A DNA stretch of 15,664 bases from Pseudomonadota bacterium (GTDB lineage: Bacteria > Pseudomonadota > Alphaproteobacteria > Rhizobiales > Methylopilaceae). The notes beneath the pieces are model-generated. The model worked only from the letters and a program-made list of their open reading frames with translations, was not told where the DNA came from and ran no database searches. Where the stretch lies: positions 1 to 15,664 of the forward strand of contig JAEWEX010000061.1 of assembly GCA_023389135.1 (NCBI GenBank). Reading direction: 5' to 3'. Below are positions 2,444-15,664 of the stretch, one piece after another (the stretch's first letter is position 1; each line of letters starts with the position of its first letter). Both the position numbers and the translations under genes were made by a program.

Positions 2444-3325
2444 TCAGTCGCCGTAGGACTTGATGAGGGCCTGGGTGCCGGCGCGGCCGTCGCCCGCTTC
2501 CGCCAGCGCGCGGTAGCGGCCGAGCGCGGTCGCCAGCCCCGCGAGATCGAGGCCGGCCGCCTCGGCCTCCGCCAGCGCGATGCCCATGTCCTTGACGAAA
2601 TGCTCGATCATGAAGCCCGGCGCGAAGTCGCCGTCGACCATCTTCGGCCCCAGCCCGTTGAGCAGGAAGCCGGAGGCGGCTCCGGTGCCGATGGAGGAGA
2701 GCACGCGGTGCGGATCGAGGCCGGCGCGGCGGGCGTAGCTCAGGCCCTCGGCCACGCCAAGCATGGTGCCGGCGATCACGGTCTGGTTGGCCATCTTGGT
2801 GTGCTGGCCGGCCCCGGGGCCGCCCTGCAGCACGATGTTGGCGCCCATGGCCTCCAGCACGGGACGCGCGCGCTCGAACGCGTCCGCGTCGCCGCCGACC
2901 ATGATGGACAGCTTTGCCGACTTCGCGCCCGCCTCGCCGCCGGAGACCGGCGCGTCCAGCGCCGCAAGGCCGCGGGCGGCGGCGGCCTCGTGGATGCGGA
3001 TCGCCAGCGAGGGGCTCGACGTGGTCATGTCGATCAGGATCGCGCCCGGCTTAGCGCGCTCGATGATGCCGCCCGCGCCCAGATAGACCTGCTCCACGTC
3101 GCTGGGCAGGCCGACGATGGTGATGACGATGTCGGCCGCCGCGGCGGCGGCGCCCGGGCTGTCGTGCAGCACCGCGCCGTTCTCCACCAGCGCGGCCGCC
3201 TTGGCGGCGGTGCGGTTGTAGACATGGAGCGCGTGGCCCGCGGCGAGCACGTGGCCGGCCATGGGACCGCCCATGATGCCGAGCCCGATGAAGGCGACGG
3301 CGGGCTTTTCGGGGGTGTCGGTCAT
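2444..3325 (-). CDS. NAD(P)-dependent beta-hydroxyacid dehydrogenase (3-hydroxyisobutyrate dehydrogenase / tartronate semialdehyde reductase family)
   Basis: Cytoplasmic oxidoreductase of 293 residues, the usual family length, interconverting a beta-hydroxyacid and its semialdehyde. The N-terminal Rossmann motif is FIGLGIMGGPM (GxGxxG at 14-19). NR at 37-38 after the second strand is often seen in NADP-preferring members. The substrate loop DAPVSGG is at 124-130, the catalytic lysine is K178 within GAGQHTKMANQ, and FVKDMGIA is at 243-250. The glycine-rich stretch after SGG reads EAGAKSAKLSIMVGG where many relatives have GTLTIMVGG. ATG 3325 is chosen because the Rossmann strand begins nine residues in and because it overlaps the hydroxylase stop codon by four bases (ATGA). 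It is the last gene of the run, so it probably processes a product of the hydroxylase pathway. The exact substrate is unknown. Confidence 0.93.
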   Translation of the reverse strand: MTDTPEKPAVAFIGLGIMGGPMAGHVLAAGHALHVYNRTAAKAAALVENGAVLHDSPGAAAAAADIVITIVGLPSDVEQVYLGAGGIIERAKPGAILIDMTTSSPSLAIRIHEAAAARGLAALDAPVSGGEAGAKSAKLSIMVGGDADAFERARPVLEAMGANIVLQGGPGAGQHTKMANQTVIAGTMLGVAEGLSYARRAGLDPHRVLSSIGTGAASGFLLNGLGPKMVDGDFAPGFMIEHFVKDMGIALAEAEAAGLDLAGLATALGRYRALAEAGDGRAGTQALIKSYGD

Positions 3326-5670
3326 GTCTTGCCTCGCAGGAGTGAACGCAGATAGGGCGGGCTGAGCGGCTGGCGCTCCGCCACGACGCCGAAGGGCGCG
3401 AGCGCGTCGTTGACGGCGCTTGTGAGTGCGCCGATCGCGCCCATCACGCCGCCTTCCGACATGCCCTTGCTGCCGGTGGGCGTGCGGCGGCTCGGGGTGG
3501 AGAGCGTCACCACGTCGATGGGCGGGATCTCCACGGCGGTGGCCACCGAATAGTCGGCGAAGCTTCCGGTCAGGTTCTGGCCCTCGGCGTCGTAGACCAC
3601 TTCCTCCATCAGCGCGCCGGACAGCCCCATGGCCACCGCGCCATGCTGCTGGCCGCGCACGATGGCCGGGTTGAGCACGCGGCCGCAATCCTCCACCACG
3701 GTGTGGCGCTCGATGCTTACGCGGCCGGTGCGCACGTCGACCACCACCTCGCAGGCATGGGCGGCGTTGGAATAGGTCATGGGCGGCGGGTCGTAGGCGC
3801 GCGTGGCCTCCAGCCCCGGCTCCATGCCCGGCGGCAGGCGGGTGGGATCGAGATGGGCGATCTGGGCGATGGCCGCCAGCGTCAGCTCCGTCGGCCGCCA
3901 TTCACCGCCCAGGTGCCGCTCCACCCGGCCGGCGCGGAGCCGCAGCTCGTCCGCGGCGTTGAGCGCCAGCAGGGATGCGGCGATGGCCAGCGCCTTTTCA
4001 CGCACGGAGGTTGCCGCCAGCAGCAGCACCCCGCCGCCGGCCGTGCCGCCGCGGGCGCCGCGGGTGCCCATGCCGTAGGGCGCGACGTCGGTGTCGCCCA
4101 TGAGCACGCGCACGTTTTCCGGCTCGACGCCGAGGCCCTCGGCCACCACCTGCGCGAACGCGGTCTCGTAGCCGTGGCCCGACCCCATGAGCCCGACCGA
4201 GGCGGTGACGCCGCCGGCGGGGTCGACGCGCACCCAGCCCGCCTCGTGGCCCGAGCCGGGGATGGCGGCGGCCTTGTAGAACGCCGAGCCGTAGGTGGTG
4301 GGCTCCACCACCGAGCAGATGCCGAGCCCGCGATGGACGCCCCGGGCCCGGTCCGCCGACTGCCGGGCGCGGAAGCCGGCATGGTCGATGCGCGCCAGCA
4401 GCGCGTCCAGCGCCGCGCCCGGCGTCACGTCCTCGACGACCTCGCCGGTGGGCATGGTGTGGGGCAGGTCCTCCGGCGCGAGCATGTTGGCGCGGCGCAC
4501 CTCGATCGGGTCGAGCCCGAGCCTGCGGGCCACCGCCTCGATGGTGCCGTCCATCACCCAGGACGTGATGGCCATGGGCGCGCGCATGGGGCCGGAGCCG
4601 CACTTGTTGGTCAGCGCGACCTTCACCTCGTAGGCGTAGTTGCGGATGCGGTAGGGGCCGGTCAGCACCATGGCGACCACGCGGGCGATGTAGTTCGCCG
4701 GGTAGAAGCAGTAGGCGCCGAAATCCTCCTCGATCAGCAGCGTCAGCGCCTGGATGCGCCCGTCCGGCGTCACCGCCGCGCGCGTCGTGACGGTCTCCTC
4801 GCGGGCGTGGGCGGCGGCGATCAGGTTCTCGGTCCGGTCCTCGCGCCAGCGCACCGGCCGGCCGAGATGGCGGGCGAGCGCCGCCACCGTCAGCTCCTCG
4901 CGCATCAGCGCGATCTTCTGGCCGAAGGCGCCGCCGATGTCGGGGCACACCACGCGCACCTGCGATTCCGCCAGGCGCAGCCGGCGCGCGAGCTGCGAGC
5001 GCAGCGGGTGCGGCGCCTGGTTGCCGGTATGGAACGTCAGGCGCTCGGCGCCTGCGTCCCAATCCGCGAGGCAGCCGCGGGTCTCCACGGGGACATGGGT
5101 CTGCCGGTGCTGGTGGAAGCGCGCTTCCACCACGATCTCCGCCGCCGCGAGGATCGCCTCCGGGTCGCCGGCGGAGAAGGTCTGGTGCGACACGAGGTTG
5201 GTGGGCAGCGCCTCGTCCACCAGCGCCGCGCCGTCGGCCAGCGCGGCGGCGTAGCTGGCGACCGCGGGCAGGGGATCGTAGTCGACCTCCACCAGTCCCG
5301 CCGCATCTTCCGCCAGGTAGCGGTCGGTGGCGACCACGCAGGCGACCGGATCGCCGATGAAGCGCGCCTTGTCCACGGGGAGCGCGCCGAATTCCACCGG
5401 CAGCAGGCCTTCGATGGCCGGCGCCACGCGCTGCGGCAGCGTCCACCGCGCCAGCTCGGCGCCGGTCACCACGGCGACGACGCCCTCCGCCGCCCGCGCG
5501 GCGTCGGCGTCGATGCCGCGGATGCGGGCATGGGCGTAGGGGCTCCTGACGAAGCAGGCATGCAGCGCGCCGGGCGACGCGATGTCGTCGAGATAGCGCC
5601 CGCGCCCCGTGAGCAGCCGCCGGTCCTCCCGGCGCAGCATGTCGCGGCCGATGATGGCGTTGCCGCTCAT
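3322..5670 (-). CDS. Molybdopterin-binding large subunit of a xanthine dehydrogenase-family / CoxL-like hydroxylase
   Basis: Catalytic subunit of 782 residues of a three-subunit molybdenum hydroxylase acting in the cytoplasm with the FAD and [2Fe-2S] subunits encoded just upstream. The N-terminal a/b hammerhead domain (GRDMLRREDRRLLTGRGRYL onward, to about 140) is followed by cofactor-binding domains: GGAFGQK at 246-252, SGHGYETAFAQ near 498, GDTDVAPYGMGTRG near 525-538, and the general-base glutamate E739 in KGMSEGGVMGAIGA. The active-site loop reads CGSGPMRAPMA (357-367). R363 is kept, but the AYRCSFR loop of true CO dehydrogenases is absent and so is the usual YRGxGRPEA, so calling it CO dehydrogenase would be wrong. 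Start ATG 5670 overlaps the preceding stop by four bases. The substrate is probably an aldehyde, N-heterocycle or other small organic compound. Confidence 0.95.
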   Translation of the reverse strand: MSGNAIIGRDMLRREDRRLLTGRGRYLDDIASPGALHACFVRSPYAHARIRGIDADAARAAEGVVAVVTGAELARWTLPQRVAPAIEGLLPVEFGALPVDKARFIGDPVACVVATDRYLAEDAAGLVEVDYDPLPAVASYAAALADGAALVDEALPTNLVSHQTFSAGDPEAILAAAEIVVEARFHQHRQTHVPVETRGCLADWDAGAERLTFHTGNQAPHPLRSQLARRLRLAESQVRVVCPDIGGAFGQKIALMREELTVAALARHLGRPVRWREDRTENLIAAAHAREETVTTRAAVTPDGRIQALTLLIEEDFGAYCFYPANYIARVVAMVLTGPYRIRNYAYEVKVALTNKCGSGPMRAPMAITSWVMDGTIEAVARRLGLDPIEVRRANMLAPEDLPHTMPTGEVVEDVTPGAALDALLARIDHAGFRARQSADRARGVHRGLGICSVVEPTTYGSAFYKAAAIPGSGHEAGWVRVDPAGGVTASVGLMGSGHGYETAFAQVVAEGLGVEPENVRVLMGDTDVAPYGMGTRGARGGTAGGGVLLLAATSVREKALAIAASLLALNAADELRLRAGRVERHLGGEWRPTELTLAAIAQIAHLDPTRLPPGMEPGLEATRAYDPPPMTYSNAAHACEVVVDVRTGRVSIERHTVVEDCGRVLNPAIVRGQQHGAVAMGLSGALMEEVVYDAEGQNLTGSFADYSVATAVEIPPIDVVTLSTPSRRTPTGSKGMSEGGVMGAIGALTSAVNDALAPFGVVAERQPLSPPYLRSLLRGKT

Positions 5671-6170
5671 TCCGCCGCCGCCCGGCCGAGCCGGCGCGCC
5701 GCGGCCGCCGAAAGCACGGCGTCGACGATGTTCTGGTAGCCGGTGCAGCGGCACATGTTGCCCGACAGCGCCTCGCGCACCTCGTCCTCCGACGGGTCGG
5801 GATGATCGTCCAGCCAGGCCTCCATGGTGACCACGATGCCGGGCGTGCAGAAGCCGCATTGCAGCCCGTGCGCCTCGTGCAGCGCCTGCTGGACCGGCGA
5901 CAGCCGGCCGCCGCGGTCGTAGGCCTCGATGGTGGTGACGGCCCGGCCGTCCGCCTGCACCGCATAGATCAGGCAGGAGCGCACCGGCCGGCCGTCCATG
6001 AGCACGGTGCAGGCGCCGCAGACGCCGTGCTCGCAGCCCACATGGGTGCCGGTCAGCCCGCACTCCTCGCGCAGCGCGTCCGACAGCAGCCGGCGCGGCT
6101 CGACCTCGATGGCCCGGGCCGCGCCGTTGGCGGTGAGCGTCACCCGCATGCGGTCCGCCGGCGCGCTCAT
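5667..6170 (-). CDS. [2Fe-2S] small subunit of the molybdenum hydroxylase (CoxS-like)
   Basis: Electron-transfer subunit of 167 residues that passes electrons from the molybdenum site to FAD. Two iron-sulfur domains are visible: a plant-ferredoxin-type cluster with C46, C51, C54 and C66 (GCEHGVCGAC then SC), and the alpha-helical second cluster with C105, C108, C140 and C142 (QCGFCTPG and MCRCTGY). All eight cysteine ligands are present and length is normal. ATG 6170 overlaps the FAD-subunit stop, and its own stop overlaps the large-subunit start, each as ATGA, so the three subunits are translationally coupled. The C-terminus is a short Ala/Arg tail. No signal peptide is seen, fitting a cytoplasmic complex. 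Confidence 0.97.
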   Translation of the reverse strand: MSAPADRMRVTLTANGAARAIEVEPRRLLSDALREECGLTGTHVGCEHGVCGACTVLMDGRPVRSCLIYAVQADGRAVTTIEAYDRGGRLSPVQQALHEAHGLQCGFCTPGIVVTMEAWLDDHPDPSEDEVREALSGNMCRCTGYQNIVDAVLSAAAARRLGRAAAE

Positions 6171-7003
6171 CGCGCGGCCCCGGCATCGGCGAGCGCGTCC
6201 TCGACCATGGCGGCGAGGATGTCGCGGCGGTAATCGGCCGGCATGCGCGCGGTGTCCTCGATGTCGGCGGCGTCGGCCACCGCGCGCGCGGCGCGGGCGG
6301 CCCAGCCGGCGTCGGCGGCATCGAACTCCGGCAGCGCCTCGTCCATGCGCACCGGCACCGGCCCGACCGCGCCGACCGCGATGCGGATCGCGCCCCCCGT
6401 CGCCAGCACGGCCACGCCCGCCTCGGCATAGTCTCCCGCGCGGCGGTTGAAGAGGCGGAAGCCCCAGCGGTCGCCGGGCCGCAGGGCCGGAACGCGGACC
6501 GCGGTCACGATCTCGGCGGGCTCCAGCACGGTGGTGAAGACGGATTCGAAGAACCCCGACACCGGGATGCGGCGCCCGCCGCCGGGGGAGGCGGCCTCGA
6601 TCACGGCGTCGAGCACCGTGCAGACCAGCGGAAGCTGGGCCGCGGGGTCGGCATGGGCGAGGCTGCCGCCCAGCGTGCCGCGGTGGCGGATCGCCACATG
6701 GCCGATGGTGCCGGCGGCATGGGCGAGGATCGGGCAGCGCCGGCGCACCAGCGGGCTCGCGGCGAGGTCGGCATGGCGCACCAGCGCGCCCAGGACCAGC
6801 GTGTCGCCGTCCTCCGCCATGCCGTCCATGCCGGGGATGCGGTTGATGTCCACCAGGTGCTCGGGCTGCGCGAGCCGCATGTTCATCATCGGCGCGAGGC
6901 TCTGGCCGCCCGCGATGATCCTTGCGTCGTCATGGGCGGCCAGCGCCGCCAGCGCCCCCTCCAGCGTGGCGGGCGCCTCGTAGGAGAAGCGCGCAGGCTT
7001 CAT
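6167..7003 (-). CDS. FAD-binding middle subunit of the molybdenum hydroxylase (CoxM-like)
   Basis: Flavin subunit of 278 residues that receives electrons from the [2Fe-2S] subunit and hands them to the terminal acceptor. Family marks are AGGQSLAPMMNMRLAQP (31-47), which binds the FAD diphosphate, and TLGGSLAHADPAAQLP (110-125), the second FAD motif, followed by the typical C-terminal CO-dehydrogenase flavoprotein domain (EIVTAVRVPA, GFRLFNRRAGDYAEAGVAVL). Length matches CoxM-type proteins. The order FAD, FeS, Mo subunit is common in this family. ATG 7003 overlaps the stop of the ABC ATPase gene by four bases, so hydroxylase translation is tied to the transporter. The electron acceptor is not visible here. 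Confidence 0.96.
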   Translation of the reverse strand: MKPARFSYEAPATLEGALAALAAHDDARIIAGGQSLAPMMNMRLAQPEHLVDINRIPGMDGMAEDGDTLVLGALVRHADLAASPLVRRRCPILAHAAGTIGHVAIRHRGTLGGSLAHADPAAQLPLVCTVLDAVIEAASPGGGRRIPVSGFFESVFTTVLEPAEIVTAVRVPALRPGDRWGFRLFNRRAGDYAEAGVAVLATGGAIRIAVGAVGPVPVRMDEALPEFDAADAGWAARAARAVADAADIEDTARMPADYRRDILAAMVEDALADAGAAR

Positions 7004-8097
7004 GCGGCCGCCGCGGCGATGTTGGCGCCGCTCGCCTTGTCGAAGATGTGCAGCCGCTCGGGCACCAGCCCGATGCGCAGCCGGTCGCCCTCGCGGTAGC
7101 GCGCCTCCTTGCCGACGCGGACATAGAGCTCGGCGTCGTCCAGCTTGAGGCCGAGATAGCGGTCGGAGCCCACGGGCAGCACGCTGTCCACCAGCCCCTC
7201 GACGCTGGGCCCGCCGCTGCGCAGCGGATCGACGTCCTCGGGGCGGATGCCGATCACCACCTCGCCCTCGCCGCCCCTGATGCGGGCGCGGGTCGCCGCG
7301 TCCAGCGGCAGGTTCACCGTGCCGCTGCGGAAGGACAGCACGCCGCTCTCCTCCGACAGCCGACCGTGGAGGTAGTTGATGGGCGGGCTGCCGAGGAAGG
7401 AGGCCACGAACATGTTGGCCGGCCGCTCGTAGATCTCGTCGGGCGAGCCGATCTGCTGCACCACGCCGTCCTTCATCACCACGATGCGGTCGGCCAGCGT
7501 CAGCGCCTCCGCCTGGTCGTGGGTGACGTAGACGAAGGTGGTGCCCATGGCGGCGTGCAGGTGCTTGATCTCCGCGCGCATGGAGATGCGCAGCGCCGCG
7601 TCCAGGTTGGACAGCGGCTCGTCCATGAGGAACACCGCCGGCTCGCGCACCATGGCGCGCCCCAGCGCGACGCGCTGGCGCTGGCCGCCGGAGAGCTGGC
7701 CCGGGCGGCGCTCCATCAGGTGCTCGATCTCCAGCTTGCGGGCGGCGTCGCGCACCCGGCGCTCGATCTCGTCCTTCGCCACCTTCCGCATGCGCAGGCC
7801 GAAGGCGATGTTCTCGTAGACGTTCTTGTGCGGGTAGAGCGCGTAGCTCTGGAACACCATGGCGACGTCGCGCCGGTGCGGCGGAAGCTCGGTCACGTCC
7901 AGATCGTCGAAAAGCAGCGTGCCGTCGGTCGGCTCCTCCAGACCGGCGATCATGTTGAGCGTGGTGGACTTGCCGCAGCCCGAGGGGCCGAGCAGCACCA
8001 GGAACTCGCGGTCCCTGATCTCCAGGTTCAGCGTGTCCACGGCGACGACGCCGCCGGCGTAACGCTTGGTGATGTCCTGGAAGAGAATGCGGGCCAT
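7000..8097 (-). CDS. ugpC: ABC transporter ATP-binding protein, UgpC/MalK type
   Basis: Energises the import system encoded just upstream. The 365 residues contain all nucleotide-binding elements: Walker A GPSGCGKST (37-45), Q-loop Q83, signature LSGGQ (135-139), Walker B VFLMDE (155-160), D-loop SNLD (163-166) and switch His H193. A C-terminal regulatory/TOBE extension follows, with GIRPEDV at 283-289 and GLVPERLHIFD near 343-353, which defines the MalK/UgpC/MsmX branch for sugars, polyols and glycerol phosphates. ATG 8097 is preceded by AAGGGTGAGG, in which the permease stop TGA is embedded, with five bases to the start. Its own stop overlaps the FAD-subunit start. Some ATPases of this branch serve several transporters, but placement makes dedicated use likely. 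Confidence 0.96.
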   Translation of the reverse strand: MARILFQDITKRYAGGVVAVDTLNLEIRDREFLVLLGPSGCGKSTTLNMIAGLEEPTDGTLLFDDLDVTELPPHRRDVAMVFQSYALYPHKNVYENIAFGLRMRKVAKDEIERRVRDAARKLEIEHLMERRPGQLSGGQRQRVALGRAMVREPAVFLMDEPLSNLDAALRISMRAEIKHLHAAMGTTFVYVTHDQAEALTLADRIVVMKDGVVQQIGSPDEIYERPANMFVASFLGSPPINYLHGRLSEESGVLSFRSGTVNLPLDAATRARIRGGEGEVVIGIRPEDVDPLRSGGPSVEGLVDSVLPVGSDRYLGLKLDDAELYVRVGKEARYREGDRLRIGLVPERLHIFDKASGANIAAAAA

Positions 8098-8104
8098 GGG
8101 AGCC

Positions 8105-9046
8105 TCACCCTTTGACGGCGCCGGCGGTCAGGCCGGAGACGATGTAGCGCTGGAACAGGATCGCCAGCACCACCGGCGGCACGATGGCGAGCACGCCGGC
8201 GGCGTTGATGAACGAGAACGAGATGGTGAAGTCGGAGGTGAACGACGCCACGATGATGGGAAGCGTCTGCGACGCCGCGGTCTGGGTGAACATCAGCGCC
8301 AGCAGGAACTCGTTCCAGCTCGTCAGGAACGCGAACAGCGACAGCGCCACCAGCGACGGCGCCGCCAGCGGCAGGTAGACCCGCGTCAGGGTCTGCAGCC
8401 GCGAGCAGCCGTCCACGCGCGCGGCCTTGTCCAGTTCGTCGGGCAGCTGCTCGAAATAGTTGGTCAGGATGAACACCGAGAACGGCACCGTCACCGCCAG
8501 GTAGGTGATGATGAGCGAGCCCAGCGAATCCAGCAGGCCCAGATTGCGGATGAACAGGAAGAACGGCACCACCAGCGCGATGTCCGGGATCACGCGCGTG
8601 GTCAGGATGGCGTAGACCGACATGCTGCGCCCGCGGAAGCGGATCTTCGCCAGCGCGTAGGCGGCCGGCACCGCCACCAGCAGGTTCAGGATCACCACCG
8701 AGACCGAGACGATGAAGCTGTTGCCCATGGCGGGCAGCAGGCTCGACGCGGTGGAGGGGATGAAGCCGCCGCTGGCGGGGTCCGCGCCGCTCCTGGTCTC
8801 GTAGGTCACGTCCCGGTCGTCGCCGGCGGAGAAGATCACGCGGAAATTCTCCAGCGTGGGGTTCTCGGGGATCCATTGCGGCGGGATCGACGTGATCTCG
8901 GCCTCCTGCTGCACCGAGGAGGACACCAGCCAGGCGACCGGCGCCAGCACGTAGAGCAGGAACATCACCGAGGCGAGGGCGAGCCCGAGGCCGCGCCACA
9001 GCGAGATGCCGCGGCGGCGGGGGCGCGAGGTTGACGCTGCGGCCAT
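8105..9046 (-). CDS. Carbohydrate-type ABC transporter permease (MalG/UgpE-like)
   Basis: Inner-membrane permease subunit of 313 residues with about six membrane segments (for example 20-42, 109-134, 146-168, 176-196, 230-250 and 282-303). The cytoplasmic EAA loop that docks onto the ATPase is ELDKAARVDGCSRLQTLTRVYLP, about 204-226, and the C-terminus ends in the MalG-like RYIVSGLTAGAVKG. The first periplasmic loop is longer than usual: about residues 73-105 (from SAGDDRDVTYE to STASSLL) add a polar stretch. The start ATG 9046 has GGAGGA seven bases upstream, inside the end of the previous permease gene; one base separates that stop from this start. It forms a heterodimer with the next permease. 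Confidence 0.95.
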   Translation of the reverse strand: MAAASTSRPRRRGISLWRGLGLALASVMFLLYVLAPVAWLVSSSVQQEAEITSIPPQWIPENPTLENFRVIFSAGDDRDVTYETRSGADPASGGFIPSTASSLLPAMGNSFIVSVSVVILNLLVAVPAAYALAKIRFRGRSMSVYAILTTRVIPDIALVVPFFLFIRNLGLLDSLGSLIITYLAVTVPFSVFILTNYFEQLPDELDKAARVDGCSRLQTLTRVYLPLAAPSLVALSLFAFLTSWNEFLLALMFTQTAASQTLPIIVASFTSDFTISFSFINAAGVLAIVPPVVLAILFQRYIVSGLTAGAVKG

Positions 9047-9047
9047 G

Positions 9048-9956
9048 TCAGATCCTCCGCCCGAGGGTGCGGATCACGACATAGGCCAGCGCCAGCGTCG
9101 CGATGGCGAGAATGTAGGACATGGCCGCGCCGGTGCCGAAGGACAGGTTGCGGAAGGTCTCCACATAGATGCGCCAGGCGACCACGTGGCTCGCATCCGC
9201 CGGCCCGCCCTCGGTCAGGATGAAGAACAGGTCGAAATGGCGGATCGCCATCATGCTCTCGTAGAGGATCACGAGCATGAATCCCGGCTTCAGCGCCGGC
9301 AGCGTGACGTGGAAGAAGCGCCGCAGCGCGTTGGCGCCGTCGACCTTGGCGGCGGCGTAGAGGTCGGCGGGGATCGCCTTCATGGTGACCAGCAGCAGGA
9401 TGGTCGCCAGCGGCACCTCCTTCCAGACGAAGGCGTTGGCGATCAGCGCCAGCGTCTTGTCGGCGTCGCCGAGCCAGACCATGTAGCGGTCGATGAAATC
9501 CAGCTGGTAGAGGATGCCGTTCAGCGCGCCGTAGTTGGAATCGTAGATCCACTTCCACATCAGCGCATTGGCGACATATGGGATCGCCCAGGGGATCAGC
9601 AGGATCGCGCTCAGGAACTTGCGGCCGGGGAACTCCTCGTTGAGCAGCAGCGCCATCAGCAGCGCGATCACCGAGATCGCCGCGACCGACATGACCGAGA
9701 AGCTGACGGTCTTCAGCACCGCGTCCCAGAAATGCGGGTCGGCCAGCACGCGGACATAGTTGTCGAGCCCGACGAAGGGCACCCGGTTCGGGCGCGTCAG
9801 CTTCAGGTCGAACAGGCTGACATAGAACGAATAGACGATGGGGAACACGGCGACCGCGAACAGCACCGCGGCCACCGGCGCCAGCAGCAGGAAGGCGCTG
9901 CGGTCGTCATGGCTCAGGAAGGACTTGCCGCGTCGGGCGAGGCTTGGTGCGGTCAC
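9048..9956 (-). CDS. Carbohydrate-type ABC transporter permease (MalF/UgpA-like)
   Basis: Second inner-membrane permease subunit, 302 residues. The first membrane helix is at about 21-44 (AFLLLAPVAAVLFAVAVFPI), followed by the conserved FVGLDNYVRVLADPHFW periplasmic segment, further helices (about 84-105, 113-133, 168-193, 225-248 and 278-297) and the EAA loop YAAAKVDGANALRRFFHVTLP (200-220). The start is a GTG at 9956 (MTAPSLARRG); no in-frame ATG lies early enough, and upstream ribosome-binding sequence is weak (GGGA about 12 bases away), so translation may be modest compared with the binding protein. It is separated from the binding-protein gene by 125 bp that hold two strong hairpins. The substrate cannot be told from the permease. 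Confidence 0.95.
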   Translation of the reverse strand: MTAPSLARRGKSFLSHDDRSAFLLLAPVAAVLFAVAVFPIVYSFYVSLFDLKLTRPNRVPFVGLDNYVRVLADPHFWDAVLKTVSFSVMSVAAISVIALLMALLLNEEFPGRKFLSAILLIPWAIPYVANALMWKWIYDSNYGALNGILYQLDFIDRYMVWLGDADKTLALIANAFVWKEVPLATILLLVTMKAIPADLYAAAKVDGANALRRFFHVTLPALKPGFMLVILYESMMAIRHFDLFFILTEGGPADASHVVAWRIYVETFRNLSFGTGAAMSYILAIATLALAYVVIRTLGRRI

Positions 9957-9983
9957 GTCTCAGGATATCCCGTGGATCGGTCG

Positions 9984-10051
9984 CGGCGCGACGGGCCGGC
10001 GATGCGGCCCGGCGTCCCGCCCGCCGCGCGCCATGGCGCGCAGCGGACGGG
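9984..10051 (-). other. Two strong inverted repeats between binding-protein and permease genes
   Basis: The 125-bp gap (9957-10081) has two stems. The larger, 10016-10051, is symmetric at 16 of 18 pairs around CCATGG (10031-10036), with a perfect inner 16-mer GCGCGCCATGGCGCGC. The smaller has GGGCCG and CGGCCC arms around a GCGATG loop (about 9993-10010). No T-run follows on either strand, so they are not classical terminators. In ABC operons such stems often protect the upstream binding-protein mRNA from 3' decay; that role here is inferred. Confidence 0.7.
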
Positions 10052-10081
10052 CGCTGGGCCCGAGGCGAGAGGGGGCTGGCC

Positions 10082-11407
10082 TCAGGCTTCCTTCTTCAGC
10101 TCGTTCCACTTGTCGGCGGAGGTCTTGAGGGCCTCCTCGGCGGTGGCGCGGCCGAGCACCGCCTGCTGCCAGGCGCTGCCGTTGACGTCGTTCCACTCGC
10201 CGAACCACGGCGTGATGACGTCCTTCTTGCGGGCGAGGTTCTGCTGCTCGGCGATCAGGTCGACCTCGCCGAACTCGTCATAGCCGGCGCGGATCTCCGG
10301 ATCCTCGAACAGCGACTTGACGCCGAAGCCGAGGCCGAGATCCTTGAACAGCATCTTCTGGATCACGTAGTCGTCGCCGGCCTTGCCCCCGAACCATTCG
10401 ATGGCCTTGACGGTGGCCTCGGCGCGGGCGTCGTTCTCCTGCGCGCGCGGGGTCATGCCGTAGAAGCGCATCCAGCCGACGGTGGCGTGCGAGCCGCCGT
10501 CGCCGGCGGGCATCAGCGCCTGCCTGATCTTGCCGGCGGCCGGGCTCTGGGCCGGGTCGTTCAGCATGCGCAGCCGGTATTTCGGGATCAGCGCGAAGGC
10601 GTGCTGGCCCGCGCCGAACGACTTCAGCCCGGCCAGCTCGCCGGTCTCGACGCAGGAGCCCGGCAGGATGCCGCTTTCCACCGCGGCGCGCAGCCACTTC
10701 AGGGTGGAGACGGCGCCGCCCTGCGGGTCGGCCATGACGGCGTCGCCATTGTCGTCGGTGAAGCGGCCGCCATTGGAGAACACCATGGCCGAGAGGAACT
10801 CGATCAGCCAGCTCTCCTGGGCCAGCGCGATCATCAGCGGGGCGTCGGCGATGCCCTTGTCCTTGATGATGCGGGCCTGGTCGGTCACCTCGGCCCAGCT
10901 CTTGGGCGGGGCGGCGATGCCGGCCTTCTCCAGCATCTCTGCGTTGTACAGGAAGGCCATGTAGTCGTTGTAGTAGGTCAGGCCGTACTGCTTGCCGCCA
11001 TACGTCATGGAGTCGATGCAGAACTCGTCGGTGTCGGCATTGTACTTCATGAGCTGCTCGTACTCGTCGACCGGGGCGAGCCAGCCGGCCTCGGCCCATT
11101 CCGGCAGCCAGGTGTCGGCGACCCACAGCATGTCGACCGGCGCGCCGCCGATGAACTTGGTGATGGTGCTCTCGCGATACTGCGCCCAGGGGGCGTTCGA
11201 GTAGGCGATGGAGATGCCGGGATTGGCCGCCTCGAAGGCGGCGATGTGGGCCTTCACATTGTCCACCGCGGCGGACCAGGTGGCGAAGTTGACGGTCTCG
11301 GCGGCGAGGCCGCGGCCGGGGAAGGTCAGGCCGGCGGCGCCGGCGAGGGCGGCGGCCGAGGTGCCCTGGATGAAGGCGCGGCGGTTGAGGATGAACGGCT
11401 TCGTCAC
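10082..11407 (-). CDS. ABC transporter family-1 (carbohydrate-type) solute-binding protein, Tat-exported
   Basis: Periplasmic receptor of 441 residues for the import system. The start is GTG 11407: it has AGAGGGGA eight bases upstream and puts a twin-arginine signal at the very N-terminus (LNRRAFIQG with R9 and R10, hydrophobic stretch AAALAGAAGLTF, cleavage near GLAA/ET about residue 36). Longer upstream frames would bury that signal. The mature part has family-1 marks: VNFATWSAAVDNVKAHIAAF, ANPGISIAYSNAPWAQYRES, VDMLWVADTWLPEWAEAGWL, YGLTYYNDYMAFLYNAEMLE and the late PWFGEWNDVNGSAWQQAVLG hinge region. This fold binds sugars, polyols and related hydroxylated compounds; many Trp/Tyr residues are compatible with that. 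Tat export means it is probably folded before export. The substrate is not determinable from sequence. Confidence 0.95.
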   Translation of the reverse strand: MTKPFILNRRAFIQGTSAAALAGAAGLTFPGRGLAAETVNFATWSAAVDNVKAHIAAFEAANPGISIAYSNAPWAQYRESTITKFIGGAPVDMLWVADTWLPEWAEAGWLAPVDEYEQLMKYNADTDEFCIDSMTYGGKQYGLTYYNDYMAFLYNAEMLEKAGIAAPPKSWAEVTDQARIIKDKGIADAPLMIALAQESWLIEFLSAMVFSNGGRFTDDNGDAVMADPQGGAVSTLKWLRAAVESGILPGSCVETGELAGLKSFGAGQHAFALIPKYRLRMLNDPAQSPAAGKIRQALMPAGDGGSHATVGWMRFYGMTPRAQENDARAEATVKAIEWFGGKAGDDYVIQKMLFKDLGLGFGVKSLFEDPEIRAGYDEFGEVDLIAEQQNLARKKDVITPWFGEWNDVNGSAWQQAVLGRATAEEALKTSADKWNELKKEA

Positions 11408-11415
11408 GGCGGAAG

Positions 11416-11423
11416 TCCCCTCT
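11416..11423 (-). promoter_or_regulatory. Ribosome-binding site that fixes the GTG start of the binding protein
   Basis: On the minus strand AGAGGGGA lies eight bases before GTG 11407. It is the only good Shine-Dalgarno match near the plausible starts and supports the Tat-signal start over longer frames. Confidence 0.7.
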
Positions 11424-11438
11424 GTTCGGTTGACGGGC

Positions 11439-11459
11439 CCGGCGCGCCTCGCGCGCCGG
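11439..11459 (-). other. Perfect 9-bp hairpin in the leader of the binding-protein gene
   Basis: CCGGCGCGC (11439-11447), loop CTC, GCGCGCCGG (11451-11459). All nine pairs are G-C or C-G. It lies about 31 bases upstream of the GTG start and about 16 bases upstream of the ribosome-binding site. There is no following T-run, so it is not a standard terminator. A 5' stabilising stem or a translational control element are both possible. Confidence 0.6.
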
Positions 11460-11487
11460 CGATGCAGGCGTGAACAGTTGGGACCGC

Positions 11488-11516
11488 ACTGTAGCCGCAT
11501 TGCGGTAAGTCGTAAA
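11488..11516 (-). promoter_or_regulatory. Candidate sigma70-type promoter of the transporter-hydroxylase operon
   Basis: On the minus strand TTTACG (11516-11511), a 17-base spacer, then TACAGT (11493-11488); each hexamer matches four of six consensus positions. The -35 lies inside the operator-like palindrome 11506-11527. The predicted leader to GTG 11407 is about 75 bases. Confidence 0.45.
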
Positions 11517-11527
11517 TTGACGATTTA
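11506..11527. promoter_or_regulatory. Operator-like palindrome upstream of the transporter operon (site 1)
   Basis: Twenty-two bases with 9 of 11 symmetric pairs: outer TAA/TTA, TCGT/ACGA, inner AATT. It overlaps the stop codon of the TetR gene at 11525-12256 and the -35 of the candidate transporter promoter. It shares TAAGTCGT-N3-TTGACG with site 2 at 12288-12309 (15 of 22 identical bases). Binding by the neighbouring TetR protein is inferred. Confidence 0.65.
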
Positions 11528-12256
11528 GATTTCCTGGACGGCGCCGGCCGATTGTCGAGACCGTGTCTCGAGCGCGCGGGCGGCGGCGCAGGCGGCAGGG
11601 AAACCGTTGAGGAACGAGGCGATGTGCAGCGACATGATCTCGCCCGGATCGAGGTCGCGGCTGGCGCCGTAGAGATAGCGCCGGATGGCGAAGTGCGACA
11701 CCGCGCCGTGCAGGATCCAGCCGATCTCGTGGACGTAGTGGTCGTCGCGGGGCAGCTCGACCCGCAGCTCGGCGGCCGCCTCCTCGACGATGGTGACGAG
11801 CATCTGCTTGATGATCGCCTGGATGTAGTTGGGCGCCATCTCGACCTCGCCCAGCGAGGAATATAGGAACAGCCTCAGCCACTTGCGGGTGAGGACGGTC
11901 TCGAAATAGTCGTCGTAGAAGCCGTTGAGCCGGCGCTCCAGCGGCGTCGAGCGGTCCTTGAGCTGGGCGAGCCAGACCGCCTTGAAGGGCGACAGGATCG
12001 CCTCGTCATAGACCGCCGACAAGAGCGCGGCCTTGGAGGGGAAATAGCGATACAGCAGCCGCTGCGCCACGCCGCATGCATCCGCCAGCGCCCGGGTCTG
12101 CGCGGTCAGTCCGTACTCGGCGAAGAACTCGGTGGCGCGCTCGAGGATCTGCGCGCGCCGCTCGGCCGCCCTCAGGCGCGGCACCGGAGTCTTGGACTCT
12201 GTCGCGACCGCCGGCCGCCCCGCGCGTCCGCTGAGGAGCTTGGAGCGGGCCCTCAT
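11525..12256 (-). CDS. TetR-family transcriptional regulator of the transporter/hydroxylase cluster
   Basis: Regulator of 243 residues. After a basic, probably flexible N-terminal extension (about 30 residues) the DNA-binding domain starts at RAAERRAQILERATEFFAEY and the helix-turn-helix is TRALADACGVAQRLLYRYFP (about 54-73), followed by SKAALLSAVYDEAI, all typical for TetR. The C-terminal two thirds is helical and would bind an effector. ATG 12256 has GGGAGG eight bases upstream. It is the first gene of the minus-strand run; the stop codon lies inside operator-like site 1, 117 bp before the binding-protein start, and site 2 lies upstream of its own start. The likely effector is the transported compound or a pathway intermediate, which is inference. 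Confidence 0.93.
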   Translation of the reverse strand: MRARSKLLSGRAGRPAVATESKTPVPRLRAAERRAQILERATEFFAEYGLTAQTRALADACGVAQRLLYRYFPSKAALLSAVYDEAILSPFKAVWLAQLKDRSTPLERRLNGFYDDYFETVLTRKWLRLFLYSSLGEVEMAPNYIQAIIKQMLVTIVEEAAAELRVELPRDDHYVHEIGWILHGAVSHFAIRRYLYGASRDLDPGEIMSLHIASFLNGFPAACAAARALETRSRQSAGAVQEI

Positions 12257-12287: not shown

Positions 12288-12309
12288 TAAGTCGTCGGTT
12301 GACGGCAAA
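12288..12309. promoter_or_regulatory. Operator-like sequence between the TetR and NIPSNAP genes (site 2)
   Basis: It lies in the 129-bp divergent intergenic region. It is identical to site 1 at 15 of 22 positions, including TAAGTCGT and TTGACG at the same spacing. Internal symmetry is weaker than in site 1; the best part is CGTC-GGTT-GACG (12293-12304 area). Its position allows control of the regulator itself and of the divergent NIPSNAP gene. Confidence 0.55.
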
Positions 12310-12373
12310 TTCGAAATCGAGCCTCGTCTTCGGGGATGTTATGACCCAGGCGGCGCGAAAGATCGATGGCCCC

Positions 12374-12378
12374 GGAGG
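12374..12378 (+). promoter_or_regulatory. Ribosome-binding site of the NIPSNAP gene
   Basis: GGAGG seven bases before ATG 12386; it decides this start against the longer in-frame reading from TTG 12299. Confidence 0.75.
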
Positions 12379-12385
12379 TGCGACG

Positions 12386-12697
12386 ATGATCTACGAGATG
12401 CGGACCTATCAGGTCTCGCCCGGCAAGGCGCCGGAGTTCCTGAAGATGTACGAGGCGGACGGGCTGCCGCTGATCGGCAAGTATGCCAAGCTCGTCGGCT
12501 GCTGGGTCAAGGAGACCGGGGTGCTGAACTCGGTCGTGTTCCTGTGGGCCTATGACGATCTCGGCCACCGCACCTCGCAGCGCGCCAAGCTCGGCCAGGA
12601 CGCGGAGTGGCAGGCCTTCGTGCCGCGCATGCTGCCGTATCTGGTGCACCAGGAGAGCGTGTTCATGACGCCTGCCGCGTTCTCGCCGGCGCGTTAG
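12386..12697 (+). CDS. NIPSNAP-family protein
   Basis: Small soluble protein of 103 residues with one dimeric alpha/beta ferredoxin-like (ABM/NIPSNAP) domain. Typical marks are the N-terminal MIYEMRTYQVSPGKAPEFLK, a central GCWVKETGVLNSVVFLWAYD strand pair and the region HRTSQRAKLGQDAEWQAFV near 61-79. ATG 12386 is chosen because GGAGG (12374-12378) lies seven bases upstream and because the family nearly always begins with this strand; the in-frame extension back to a TTG at 12299 runs through the operator-like region and is rejected. Function of bacterial NIPSNAP proteins is poorly defined, and several lie in catabolic clusters. Divergent orientation and the shared operator region suggest it belongs to the transporter/hydroxylase regulon. 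Its stop directly abuts the stop of the convergent DUF934 gene. Confidence 0.93.
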   Translation: MIYEMRTYQVSPGKAPEFLKMYEADGLPLIGKYAKLVGCWVKETGVLNSVVFLWAYDDLGHRTSQRAKLGQDAEWQAFVPRMLPYLVHQESVFMTPAAFSPAR

Positions 12698-13186
12698 TCA
12701 GCCCAGGCGCGCGCGCCGCATGGTCGGCGCGCCGTCGGCGGCGGGCTGGTAGAAGCGGCGGTAGCGCTGGAGCGCATCCGACAGTGCGTCGATGTCGCCG
12801 GCCTTGGTGATCTCGAAGGCGTCGAACCCCGCCCGCGCCATCAGCAGGAACTGGTCGCGCAGGACATTGCCGGTCGCCCGCAGCTCGCCGGTCCAGCCCA
12901 ACTGCTCGCGCAACTGCCGCGCCTGTGTGTAGGCGCGGCCGTCCTTGAAGGTCGGGAACACGAGCGCCACCAGCGCCAGCCCGTGCAGGTACGGCGCCAG
13001 TTCGGCGACCGGCCTGTCGTTGGGCCAGACCACGCCGAGCGGGGCGGTGCGGCCCGCCGCAACCCCCGCATTCGCCAGCAGGCGCGCGCCGTCGACGAGC
13101 GCCGCCCTGTCGGCTGGCACGGGCTCGTCGCCGAGGATGCGGGCATACGGATCGTCGATCCGCCGGCCGTGCTTAATGAGCGGCAT
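12698..13186 (-). CDS. DUF934 family protein associated with sulfite reduction
   Basis: Cytoplasmic protein of 162 residues, last gene of the sulfite-assimilation operon. The conserved core is visible: VALVFPTFKDGRAYTQARQL followed by REQLGWTGELRATGNVLRDQ and FLLMARAGFDAFEI (about 75-126). The family is nearly always next to sulfite reductase or PAPS reductase genes and is annotated as a possible accessory oxidoreductase, but no enzymatic activity is proven to my knowledge and no cysteine or cofactor motif is visible. ATG 13186 lies 14 bases inside the end of the sulfite reductase gene, in a different frame, so it is translationally coupled. The stop codon touches the stop of the NIPSNAP gene on the other strand, with no room for a separate terminator. 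Confidence 0.92.
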   Translation of the reverse strand: MPLIKHGRRIDDPYARILGDEPVPADRAALVDGARLLANAGVAAGRTAPLGVVWPNDRPVAELAPYLHGLALVALVFPTFKDGRAYTQARQLREQLGWTGELRATGNVLRDQFLLMARAGFDAFEITKAGDIDALSDALQRYRRFYQPAADGAPTMRRARLG

Positions 13187-14828
13187 AGGCGCGGTCCTTG
13201 AATGGCGCGACGCCGAGCCGCTTCACCGTTTCCACGAAGATCTCGTCGCGACCCTGCCGGAGTTCCAGGTAGGTCTCGACCACGCGCTCCACCACATCCA
13301 CCACCTCGGCCTCCGGGACGGCCGGCCCGAGAAGCTCGCCCAGCGCGGCGTCCTCGTCGGCCTTTCCGCCCAGCGTCATCTGGTAGAACTCCTCGCCGTT
13401 CTTCTCCACGCCGAGGATGCCGATATGGCCGATATGGTGGTGGCCGCAGGCATTGATGCAGCCGGAGATGTTGACGTGGAGCCGGCCGACGTCGTTGGCC
13501 CGGTCGAGGTCGGCGAAGCGCTGGGTGATGGCCTGCGCCACGGGGATCGAGCGGGTGTTGGCGAGGCTGCAATAGTCGAGCCCCGGGCAGGCGATGATGT
13601 CGGTCACCAGGTTGACGTTGGGCGTCGCGGCGCCGATGGCGTCCAGCGCCCGCCACAGCTCCGGCAGATCCTTCTGGCGGACATGCGGCAGGCACAAATT
13701 CTGCTCGTGGCCCACGCGCACCTCGCCGGAGGCGTAGCGGTCGGCGAGGTCGGCGATGGCGTCCATCTGGTCCGCGGTCGCATCCCCCGGAGGGCCGCCC
13801 ACGGGCTTCAGCGACACGGTGACGATGGCGTAGCCCGGCACCTTGTGGCGGTGGACGGAATTGGCGTGCCAGCGTGCGAAGGCGGGGTCCATCAGCGCCA
13901 CCACAAGCTCCGGAGGCGCGTCCTTCAGCGTCTCGAAAACGGGATAGACGAAGCGCGAGCGGATGTCGGCCACGGTCGCCGCGTCCAGCCGCAGCGCGCC
14001 GTCGCGGATCGCCTGCCACTCGGCCTCGACGCGCCGGCCGAACTCGTCCGCGCCGATCTCGTGGACCAGGATCTTGATGCGCGCCTTGTAGATGTTGTCG
14101 CGCCGGCCCTCGGCGTTGTAGCAGCGCAGGATCGCCTCCAGATAGGTCAGCAGATCGTCCACGGGCAGGAACTCGCGGATCACCTTGCCCACGAACGGCG
14201 TGCGGCCGAGGCCGCCGCCGACGGCGACCCGGAAGCCTGGCCGGCCGTCGGCGTCGCGCAGCATCCTCAGCCCGATGTCATGGACCATCACCGCCGCCCG
14301 GTCCTCGTCGGCGGCGGAGACCGCGATCTTGAACTTGCGCGGCAGGTAGGTGAATTCCGGGTGCAGCGTCGACCACTGCCGGATGATCTCGGCCCACACG
14401 CGCGGGTCGTCGACCTCGCCCGGAACCGCGCCGGCCCACTGGTCGGTGGTGGTGTTGCGGATGCAGTTGCCGGAGGTCTGGATGCCGTGGATGCCGACGA
14501 AGGCGAGTTCCGCCATGGCGTCGGGCAGTTCCTCAAGCTTGATCCAGTTGAACTGGATGTTCTGGCGGGTGGTGAAGTGCCCGTAGCCCCGGTCGTAGCG
14601 CCGGGCCACATGGGCGAGCATGCGCAGCTGCGGCGTCGAAAGCGTCCCGTAGGGAATGGCGATCCTGAGCATGTAGGCGTGGAGCTGAAGGTAGACGCCG
14701 TTCATGAGACGAAGCGGCTTGAACTCGTCCTCGCTCAGCGCGCCGGACAGGCGGCGGCCCACCTGGTCGCGGAACTCGGCGACGCGGTCGCCGAGGAAGG
14801 CATGGTCGAACTCGTCATAGACATACAT
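13173..14828 (-). CDS. cysI: Siroheme/[4Fe-4S] sulfite reductase hemoprotein (nitrite/sulfite reductase family)
   Basis: Reduces sulfite to sulfide with six electrons for cysteine synthesis in the cytoplasm. The 551 residues hold two sulfite/nitrite reductase half-domain pairs. The siroheme-iron-sulfur ligands are C414 and C420 (IIACPGLDYC) and C457 and C461 (GCINACGHHHIGHIGI), giving the C-x5-C...C-x3-C pattern. Anion-binding basic residues are visible: R88 (TTRQNIQFNW), R124 (GNCIRN), K165 and K167 (RKFKIAVS). The start ATG 14828 has AAGGA nine bases upstream, overlapping the stop of the DUF2849 gene. Neighbouring siroheme-synthesis, DUF2849 and DUF934 genes argue for sulfite rather than nitrite. 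No flavoprotein partner (CysJ) is adjacent, so reductant may come from ferredoxin or an unlinked protein. Confidence 0.94.
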   Translation of the reverse strand: MYVYDEFDHAFLGDRVAEFRDQVGRRLSGALSEDEFKPLRLMNGVYLQLHAYMLRIAIPYGTLSTPQLRMLAHVARRYDRGYGHFTTRQNIQFNWIKLEELPDAMAELAFVGIHGIQTSGNCIRNTTTDQWAGAVPGEVDDPRVWAEIIRQWSTLHPEFTYLPRKFKIAVSAADEDRAAVMVHDIGLRMLRDADGRPGFRVAVGGGLGRTPFVGKVIREFLPVDDLLTYLEAILRCYNAEGRRDNIYKARIKILVHEIGADEFGRRVEAEWQAIRDGALRLDAATVADIRSRFVYPVFETLKDAPPELVVALMDPAFARWHANSVHRHKVPGYAIVTVSLKPVGGPPGDATADQMDAIADLADRYASGEVRVGHEQNLCLPHVRQKDLPELWRALDAIGAATPNVNLVTDIIACPGLDYCSLANTRSIPVAQAITQRFADLDRANDVGRLHVNISGCINACGHHHIGHIGILGVEKNGEEFYQMTLGGKADEDAALGELLGPAVPEAEVVDVVERVVETYLELRQGRDEIFVETVKRLGVAPFKDRAYAAH

Positions 14829-14840
14829 GAACGGAAATCC

Positions 14841-15155
14841 TTACGCCGCGCCGGGGAGCGCGAATGTCGGGCCCTCGCTGCGGATGCGCTCGCGCAGGTC
14901 GAAGGGACGTGCACGACCCTGGGCGTCGGGAGCGACGCGGGCGACATAGGGGCCGACGGCCAGGTCGCTGTCGGCTTCGGCGGCGCGAAGCAGCGCAAGC
15001 GCGCCGTCGGGGTCGGTCGCGACGGCGGCGTCCGCCATGCGCTCTGACCACTCTTCATGCGCCGTGAGCCAGATGACGGCGCCGTCGCCCAGCCGGTTGG
15101 CCGTGATGGAGACGGGACCCTTGATCTTCAGCTTCTTCTGCTGCGGGGCGGTCAT
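14841..15155 (-). CDS. DUF2849 family protein in the siroheme-sulfite reductase operon
   Basis: Small soluble protein of 104 residues. N-terminal SITANRLGDGAVIWLTAHEE and the later GPYVARVAPDAQGRARPFDL with RERIRSEGP are family marks. DUF2849 proteins are short and, in alphaproteobacteria, typically lie between the uroporphyrinogen methyltransferase and sulfite reductase genes, exactly as here. A role in siroheme delivery or reductase assembly is guessed from context only. ATG 15155 is chosen because AGAGGA precedes it with a short spacer and the protein starts MTAPQQKKLK like relatives; a longer frame back to 15212 would overlap the upstream gene and add an Arg-rich stretch. It is eight bases after the methyltransferase stop and 12 bases before the reductase start. 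Confidence 0.9.
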   Translation of the reverse strand: MTAPQQKKLKIKGPVSITANRLGDGAVIWLTAHEEWSERMADAAVATDPDGALALLRAAEADSDLAVGPYVARVAPDAQGRARPFDLRERIRSEGPTFALPGAA

Positions 15156-15163
15156 GGCGTCCT

Positions 15164-15664
15164 CTAGCCTGCGAGCGCGACGTCGGCGCGCGCCAGCGCC
15201 TGTTCGCGCCACGGGTCGGAAAGGGCGGTCGCCTCGCCGATCACGAGAAGTGCCGGGCCGTCGCCGGCGCGCGCCGCCAGTGCGGCGAGTTCGTCGAGGC
15301 GGCCGGTGAGGGCGGTGGCGTCCGGGCGGGTGCCGTTGGAGATGACGGCTGCTGGCGTGGACGTGTCGCGACCGGCGGCGATCAGTCCGCGGGAGACGGC
15401 GCCGGCGGCGTCGCGGCCCATATAGACCACCACCGTGGTGTCGGCGCGCCCGAGCCCGGACCAGTCGGCATCGGAGCCGTCCGCGCGGCTCGCCGTGACC
15501 AGCGCGATGCGGCTCGCGACCCCGCGATGGGACAGCGGAAGGCCGGTCTGTGCGGCGCAGCCGAACGCGGCCGAGATGCCGGGGACAATGGCGGTTTCGA
15601 TGCCCTCGGCGCGCAGGTGCTCGAGCTCCTCGCCGCCACGGCCGAACACGAACGGGTCGCCGCC
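15164..15664 (-). CDS. cobA: Uroporphyrinogen-III C-methyltransferase (siroheme synthesis), partial at the right edge
   Basis: SAM-dependent methylation of uroporphyrinogen III to precorrin-2, the first step toward siroheme for the sulfite reductase downstream. Only the C-terminal 166 residues are in the window; the frame is open to the right edge. The visible part begins at the SAM-binding motif GGDPFVFGRGGEE and continues with GISAAFGCAAQTGLPLSHRG and the strand TTVVVYMGRDAA, then AVISNGTRPD, all characteristic of this family. Whether the full protein is a single-domain methyltransferase or the trifunctional CysG with oxidase/ferrochelatase domain cannot be told because the N-terminus is outside. 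It is the first visible gene of the operon, eight bases before the DUF2849 start. Confidence 0.94.
   Translation of the reverse strand, partial: GGDPFVFGRGGEELEHLRAEGIETAIVPGISAAFGCAAQTGLPLSHRGVASRIALVTASRADGSDADWSGLGRADTTVVVYMGRDAAGAVSRGLIAAGRDTSTPAAVISNGTRPDATALTGRLDELAALAARAGDGPALLVIGEATALSDPWREQALARADVALAG

Follow-up and report, generated by a model that had tools for sequence, protein, structure and literature searches.

A conserved proteobacterial gene unit that seems to combine import and molybdenum-enzyme oxidation of a sugar-like compound

What does a sugar-type ABC importer do in one run of genes with a molybdenum hydroxylase and a beta-hydroxyacid dehydrogenase? The question was raised by a 15,664-nucleotide stretch of contig JAEWEX010000061.1 (assembly GCA_023389135.1), from an alphaproteobacterium of the Methylopilaceae, which as a whole is called the window here. 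A first-pass annotation made from the letters alone had read nine minus-strand genes in this stretch, and the coordinates and Pfam domains obtained by us agreed with that reading for all nine. Up to twelve neighbouring genes, whose order is kept across many proteobacteria, seem to serve the import and Mo-enzyme oxidation of a sugar-like compound. The features of the locus in the window were as follows.

12299..12697, plus strand: NIPSNAP-family gene, divergent from the TetR gene (PF07978, 1.4e-26)
12288..12309, no strand: weaker operator-like palindrome in the NIPSNAP/TetR gap (5 mismatches in 22)
11525..12256, minus strand: TetR-family regulator (PF00440)
11506..11527, no strand: operator-like palindrome before the importer operon (2 mismatches in 22)
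10082..11407, minus strand: solute-binding protein, Tat-type and MalE-like, GTG start (PF01547/PF13416)
10012..10054, minus strand: strong RNA hairpin of 43 bases between the binding-protein and PerA genes (z -3.59, 141-base stretch)
9048..9956, minus strand: ABC permease A (PerA), GTG start (PF00528; nearest NCBIfam UgpA/GlcT, under the cut-off)
8105..9046, minus strand: ABC permease B (PerB) (PF00528; nearest NCBIfam GlcU/MalG/UgpE, under the cut-off)
7000..8097, minus strand: MalK/UgpC-type ATPase (NF008653, 450.7 bits, cut-off 432; OB_MalK and TOBE_2 domains)
6167..7003, minus strand: FAD subunit of the Mo hydroxylase (PF00941, PF03450; ATGA overlap)
5667..6170, minus strand: FeS subunit with two [2Fe-2S] clusters (PF00111, PF01799; eight Cys)
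3322..5670, minus strand: Mo (molybdopterin) subunit with a GPMRAP loop (PF01315, PF02738, PF20256; Glu739 and loop residues)
2444..3325, minus strand: HIB, a beta-hydroxyacid dehydrogenase of the HIBADH family (PF03446, PF14833; Lys177, Asn180, Arg38)

The frame of the binding protein could also be read from an alternative ATG at 11500 (10082-11500), which adds 31 residues. The GTG at 11407 is the likelier start, because it has the ribosome-binding site AGAGGGGA and gives about 440 residues, as in the best relatives. The NIPSNAP gene was called as 12341-12697 by a codon-model gene caller, and its true start is probably the ATG at 12386 or that of the frame from 12341. All four ATGA overlaps (7003-7000, 6170-6167, 5670-5667, and 3325-3322) were confirmed; the earlier description of the importer and enzymes as "fused" by translation coupling holds for translational overlap and not for the proteins, none of which was a fusion. 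The gap of 125 bases between the binding-protein and PerA genes contained the strong hairpin, and an Rfam search gave no match at gathering scores. Beyond the locus, the minus strand at 12698-15649 carried genes for DUF934, a nitrite/sulfite reductase-type hemoprotein, DUF2849, and a tetrapyrrole methylase, which look like an assimilatory sulfite reductase cluster. Toward the other end were minus-strand genes for an RND efflux periplasmic adaptor (3-1135) and a second TetR regulator (1220-1807), and a plus-strand open frame of 185 residues without a Pfam match (1879-2436; called as 1906-2436 on the same strand by the codon-model caller).

The window was compared with relatives in a set of 71 loci, consisting of 68 genome contigs, two plasmids, and the window itself. 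The 68 genome loci were obtained by scanning a single genome of each species with a Mo-subunit alignment and were recruited by the exact peptide patterns NKCG[NSY]GPM or [EVA]DFG[AG]YCF, so they are not an unbiased census; some of the 71 (Thioclava, Paraburkholderia) are near-copies, and cut contigs lower every count. Genes were counted by tblastn with strand and position checked, in place of codon-model gene calling and clustering, because the codon-model caller had missed genes (in the low-GC L014 and others) and had admitted distant paralogues (HIB in L013, the ATPase and PerB in L034 and L040, and FeS in L030). The overlap, distance-correlation, and residue-conservation counts given below rest on the codon-model gene calls.

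The complete order of binding protein, PerA, PerB, ATPase, FAD, FeS, Mo, and HIB was found in 33 of the 71 loci, and in 31 of the 51 that had long flanks (at least 7 kb before and at least 1.2 kb after Mo); the part from the binding protein to Mo was kept in 39 of 71. Such recurrence of the eight-gene order is not a product of chance. The gene order that the first-pass annotation had proposed to survey is thus not confined to the strain of the window. Each gene was present in the following numbers of loci (those among the 51 with long flanks in brackets): FeS, 58 (46); FAD, 55 (46); HIB, 49 (42); ATPase, 48 (40); NIPSNAP, 46 (43); PerB, 45 (39); PerA, 44 (38); binding protein, 42 (38); CoxG, 40 (36); TetR, 34 (33); M20 amidohydrolase, 28 (27); and porin, 9 of the 71. 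These, namely the nine genes of the window, NIPSNAP, CoxG, M20, and porin, were the gene families found in at least nine loci, and each neighbour family after this recurrent set occurred in at most six (codon-model clusters). The NIPSNAP gene stood divergently beside the TetR gene in 24 loci; the one at 12299-12697 on the plus strand belongs to the unit, which is therefore larger than nine minus-strand genes. The extent of the operon had been read correctly for the nine genes, and the divergent NIPSNAP gene, the palindrome, and the CoxG and M20 genes of the wider family had been overlooked.

According to record titles and the tree, the hosts were Rhodobacterales, Hyphomicrobiales, Rhodospirillales/Acetobacteraceae, Burkholderiales and other Betaproteobacteria, and one SAR324 MAG. 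Inter-locus distances of the other subunits tracked those of Mo with r of 0.65-0.96, versus a maximum of 0.33 after shuffling, part of this signal being plain shared ancestry. ATGA-type overlaps were found in relatives at 16 of 42 ATPase-FAD, 31 of 52 FAD-FeS, 24 of 53 FeS-Mo, and 24 of 49 Mo-HIB junctions. Since the overlaps were only partly kept, the case for a unit rests on the conserved order and on a shared palindrome.

This palindrome, with the consensus TAAGTCGTCAATTGACGACTTA, was common to the NIPSNAP/TetR and TetR/binding-protein gaps. A scan of the window for the site at 11506-11527 gave one match, versus 0.00 expected in shuffles. When up to five mismatches in 22 were allowed, 31 of 42 loci had the palindrome 5' of the binding-protein gene and 18 of 24 had it within the NIPSNAP/TetR gap. 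It also preceded 4 of 10 other TetR genes and, in loci that lacked the binding protein, 5 of 15 FAD genes; it occurred in none of 91 shuffled regions. Because the consensus had been read from the same gaps that were scored, a scan of whole genomes is the less circular test. Twenty of 28 genomes had sites with at most three mismatches, at 29 places in total, and 28 of these places, checked letter by letter, fell in loci of the set; the reversed palindrome, used as a control, gave no match in the 28 genomes. The eight genomes without a site at this limit had weaker sites in their gaps, with 4 to 7 mismatches. The sole match outside a locus of the set was at G1097:C92:161805-161826, with 2 mismatches. 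We infer that the TetR protein binds the palindrome.

On this genomic comparison, the importer, the three-subunit Mo hydroxylase, and the HIBADH-family dehydrogenase make up a single conserved unit that has palindromes in common. It is natural to read such a unit as acting on one compound and on what is made from it. The earlier claim that hydroxylase and dehydrogenase act on the imported compound is supported to that extent, and the action of all parts on a single compound is an inference.

The importer had the features of the CUT1 (MalK-type) class: an SBP_bac_1 binding protein, two BPD_transp_1 permeases, and an ATPase with MalK OB/TOBE domains. The predicted model of the binding protein (pLDDT 87.5) showed a MalE3/TMBP/SmoF-like fold, and its RR motif was present in 37 of 42 loci. 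Sequence and predicted fold thus support a sugar-type (MalE/CUT1-like) importer, as first annotated, the fold giving the class and not the ligand. To E<=1e-30, the binding protein had one match per genome in nine of ten carrier genomes, and none in the tenth, a Gluconacetobacter genome whose locus is without the importer. Wider searches at E<=1e-60, in which up to five candidates per genome were scored and the centre was included, gave one match in 385 genomes (the class of the genome of L003), four in 345 (the family of that of L009), and two in 349 (the family of that of L017). All seven were at loci of the set (L003, L009, L022, L002, L015, L017, and L018). In a plasmid collection, the binding protein and the Mo subunit were found in the same two records and in no others at the limits used. 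At these thresholds, the binding protein was seen only inside this locus, and the reverse searches indicated that the system is rare and patchy.

All three subunits of the hydroxylase had Pfam domains of the xanthine oxidase family above gathering scores, and no NCBIfam cut-off was reached by the FAD, FeS, or Mo subunit. The eight Cys of the FeS subunit were invariant in 55 of 55 aligned sequences. The Mo subunit retained the Gln of GAFGQK, and its catalytic Glu739 was present in 67 of 71 rows (three gaps, one Ala). Its loop in the window was CGSGPMRAPM, and P-M-R-A-P was found in all 71 loci, the constancy of G-P-M being partly built in by recruitment with exact peptide patterns. The best NCBIfam score of the Mo subunit was 521.9 bits for CODH group 5, whose cut-off is 950. 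Neither the motif (A/S)YRCS(F/L)R of form I Mo-Cu CO dehydrogenase nor the motif AYRGAGR of the putative form II was present in the Mo subunit; according to a 2026 survey, the former motif is diagnostic of form I, and form II, whose activity it describes as unresolved, has the latter (PMC13240472). CO, which had been listed among the possible substrates, is unlikely because neither CoxL signature was present.

The last enzyme, HIB, had the Rossmann domain, SGG, catalytic Lys, and C-terminal helical domain of the HIBADH superfamily, and retained the glycine motif, SGG, Lys177, and Asn180. Arg38 was present in 49 of 50 aligned sequences; Arg at such a position goes with NADP use, and this residue suggests that HIB would use NADP. 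Fifteen loci extended for more than 1 kb downstream of Mo and showed no HIB after it. In L010, a D-2-hydroxyacid dehydrogenase gene lay beside NIPSNAP and no HIB followed Mo; the same gene was present in L007, where the contig ends after Mo.

Neither a FAD nor a FeS gene lay next to Mo at 12 of the 68 loci that had 600 bases or more before it (L004, L016, L027, L030, L032, L034, L040, L048, L056, L057, L062, and L068). Nine were long enough for the tree and grouped as a single branch with an SH-aLRT of 99, in the region that is sister to the window and L001; the "noFADFeS" label in the Mo tree is wrong or unsure for L014, L031, L042, L045, L046, and L049. In L030, L032, L056, and L062, an ATGA overlap joined the ATPase gene to the Mo gene, so the importer-enzyme link was kept while the electron-transfer subunits left. 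FAD-like and FeS-like genes were found elsewhere in all 12 genomes. Of ten such regions, L118 and L119 had a FAD-FeS pair and no Mo gene, L120-L124 and L127 had their own Mo gene (34-41% identical to that of the window), L126 had part of one, and in L125 FAD alone was seen. The pair at L118:773-5282, in the genome of L032, adjoined genes for a HIBADH-family enzyme, a D-2-hydroxyacid dehydrogenase, and an MFS transporter, and it may be a trans partner.

Additional proteins were encoded at many of the related loci. CoxG followed in 40 of 71 loci, and M20 was present in 28; neither was found in the window. In a study of CoxG homologues, these were shown to recruit a glycerol-3-phosphate dehydrogenase to the membrane and apparently take no part in electron transfer; the study cites the same role for CO dehydrogenase and a proposed one for 3-hydroxypyridine dehydrogenase (PMC11962113). 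The solved proteins nearest to M20 were YxeP, ILL2, and N-acyl-glutamine aminoacylase, and its presence in relatives speaks for an amide at some point of the route. No oxygenase (ring-cleaving ones included), kinase, or aldolase was found among the gene clusters common to at least nine loci. Same-strand neighbours of single loci included an SDR with an SMP-30/gluconolactonase (L026), an arabinonate-dehydratase-like enzyme with an Azf-like dehydrogenase and a GntR gene (L028), a GH1 glycosidase together with a second CUT1 importer (L023), an HSL-type esterase (L025), and an amidase (L063); an aldo-keto reductase beside L040 was of a cluster also found in L034 and L068. Acetoin dehydrogenase genes (E1 alpha, E1 beta, and E2, the last with 487.8 bits versus a cut-off of 307) lay directly 5' of the importer-Mo genes or of the Mo gene alone in L032:2416-5574 and L048:4976-8116. 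Together, these variable neighbours point to oxidation of hydroxyaldehydes and hydroxyacids more than to ring cleavage. No informative neighbour occurred in more than three loci, however, and each could be coincidental; clusters in four to six loci were named in part. In four Gluconacetobacter loci (L052, L054, L055, and L067), the importer was absent and a TonB-dependent receptor gene preceded FAD; NIPSNAP and an ArgE-like M20 gene lay upstream (named in L052).

The explanation that we tentatively prefer, with slightly less than even confidence, is a TetR-controlled, non-phosphorylating oxidative pathway in which the Mo enzyme oxidizes the aldehyde or lactol of an imported sugar-like compound and HIB handles the product. 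The importer would bring in a small sugar- or polyol-like compound, and the Mo enzyme would add water-derived oxygen to its aldehyde or lactol carbon to give an acid. Electrons would pass from Mo through the [2Fe-2S] clusters and FAD to the quinone pool at the membrane, where CoxG may hold the Mo enzyme in relatives. HIB, as a predicted NADP-type dehydrogenase, would interconvert a hydroxyacid and a semialdehyde, and in relatives the M20 amidohydrolase, or in single lineages the esterase or amidase, may remove an acyl or amino moiety. Binding of the compound or an early product would release TetR from the palindromes. The conserved order, the correlated distances, the locus-bound binding protein, the palindrome, and the CUT1-type fold count for this pathway, as do CoxG in 40 of 71 loci, the absence of oxygenase, kinase, and aldolase, and variant neighbours of the oxidative-carbohydrate type. 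Against it count the nearest solved large subunit, which is that of an N-heterocycle enzyme, quinoline 2-oxidoreductase; M20 in relatives, which points to an amide and not to a plain sugar; the absence of CoxG and M20 from the window; the thin evidence from neighbours, which may be coincidental; and the loci in which HIB is missing after Mo (15) or FAD and FeS are missing beside it (twelve). A sugar-like aldehyde is the most likely substrate. Homarine was also considered and was dropped, as no link was found.

One alternative is an N-heterocycle or other aromatic pathway, in which a polar heterocycle would be imported and its ring hydroxylated by the Mo enzyme, M20 then splitting an amide formed later. 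The match of the Mo subunit to quinoline 2-oxidoreductase (473 bits), M20 in 28 of 71 loci, and the fact that TetR regulators often sense hydrophobic compounds would all fit it. CoxG would fit as well, having been proposed for 3-hydroxypyridine dehydrogenase also (PMC11962113). However, the clusters common to at least nine loci include no ring-cleaving oxygenase, the binding protein is MalE-like, the substrate loop of the Mo subunit is unlike that of quinoline oxidoreductase, and the variant neighbours are of carbohydrate type. We regard this pathway as rather unlikely; N-heterocycles, which the first-pass annotation had placed among the possible substrates, are made less likely because the recurrent set includes no enzyme for ring cleavage.

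If M20 acted first, the substrate could instead be amide- or N-acyl-linked, such as an N-acyl amino acid or an amino-sugar conjugate, and the Mo enzyme and HIB would act on the released hydroxy-aldehyde. The YxeP/ILL2/N-acyl-glutamine aminoacylase-type M20 in 27 of 51 long-flank loci, the ArgE-like M20 beside the Gluconacetobacter locus, and the amidase in L063 argue for such a substrate, but M20 is absent from the window and from 24 of the 51 flanked loci, so the operon does not require it as a neighbour at every locus, and this order of events is quite unlikely. Detoxification or signal turnover, in which the operon would serve to clear a toxic aldehyde sensed by TetR and not to feed on it, would agree with the presumed TetR control and with the RND efflux adaptor gene further along the window (3-1135). 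It is improbable, since a high-affinity type importer kept with the enzyme (33 of 71 loci) would be odd for a toxin and RND genes lie outside the recurrent set beyond six Paraburkholderia loci. A CO dehydrogenase or CO-scavenging system with the importer as a bystander is extremely improbable: relatives are labelled carbon-monoxide dehydrogenase large subunit in source annotations, CODH group 5 gives the best NCBIfam score (521.9 bits), and CoxG is in 40 of 71 loci, but the cut-off of 950 is missed, the form I and form II signatures are both absent, Ala stands in the Mo subunit at the position of the CoxL loop Cys that binds copper, and the importer and palindrome are kept with the Mo enzyme.

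Open full-text literature searches gave no description of this gene set, in agreement with the earlier view of it as a candidate for an undescribed system. A fuller proposal, which we consider doubtful, is that of an undescribed, patchily spread, non-phosphorylating pathway for a possibly N-acylated, sugar-like compound, with a new quinone-linked subfamily of Mo aldose/aldehyde oxidoreductases, and marked by NIPSNAP and by a TetR operator of the GTCGTCAATTGACGAC type. Many proteins that have no assigned substrate carry labels such as "carbon-monoxide dehydrogenase large subunit" and "xanthine dehydrogenase family". Since this Mo subfamily comes with its own binding protein, confined to this locus at the thresholds used, ligand screening of a single soluble protein could reveal what the whole subfamily acts on, and the palindrome is a ready reporter for the inducer.

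Among known systems, quinoline 2-oxidoreductase (1t3q) had the nearest solved large subunit, with 473 bits over residues 7-774, and its substrate loop is GAYRGVG versus GPMRAPM in the window. For the FAD and FeS subunits, the highest NCBIfam scores were those of archaeal glyceraldehyde dehydrogenase (NF041018-NF041020), which came a close third for the Mo subunit, with scores below the equivalog cut-offs in each case (215.2 versus 350, 214.8 versus 290, and 502.4 versus 790 bits, respectively). Tartronate semialdehyde reductase (TIGR01505) was the best NCBIfam match of HIB and shares the Rossmann Gly motif, SGG, Lys, and Asn, at 243.6 bits versus a cut-off of 340.75. Aerobic Mo-Cu CO dehydrogenase operons (coxMSL with coxG) share the order FAD-FeS-Mo as M-S-L, with large subunits matching at 401-465 bits, and contain coxG, which is also found in many relatives of the window locus. 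Form I CoxL has AYRCSFR, whereas the loop in the window is GPMRAPM, and the importer, HIB, NIPSNAP, and TetR replace the other cox maturation genes. The Thioclava loci do, like cox operons, carry XdhC/CoxI and MobA-like genes, which in L022 were at the locus ends and are fitting for cofactor maturation. The MalE/TMBP/SmoF-type CUT1 importers resemble that of the window in fold, ATPase type, and gene order, the binding protein being 15-23% identical to the solved proteins listed. Unlike in those importers, the binding protein of the window was tied to this operon in the genomes searched.
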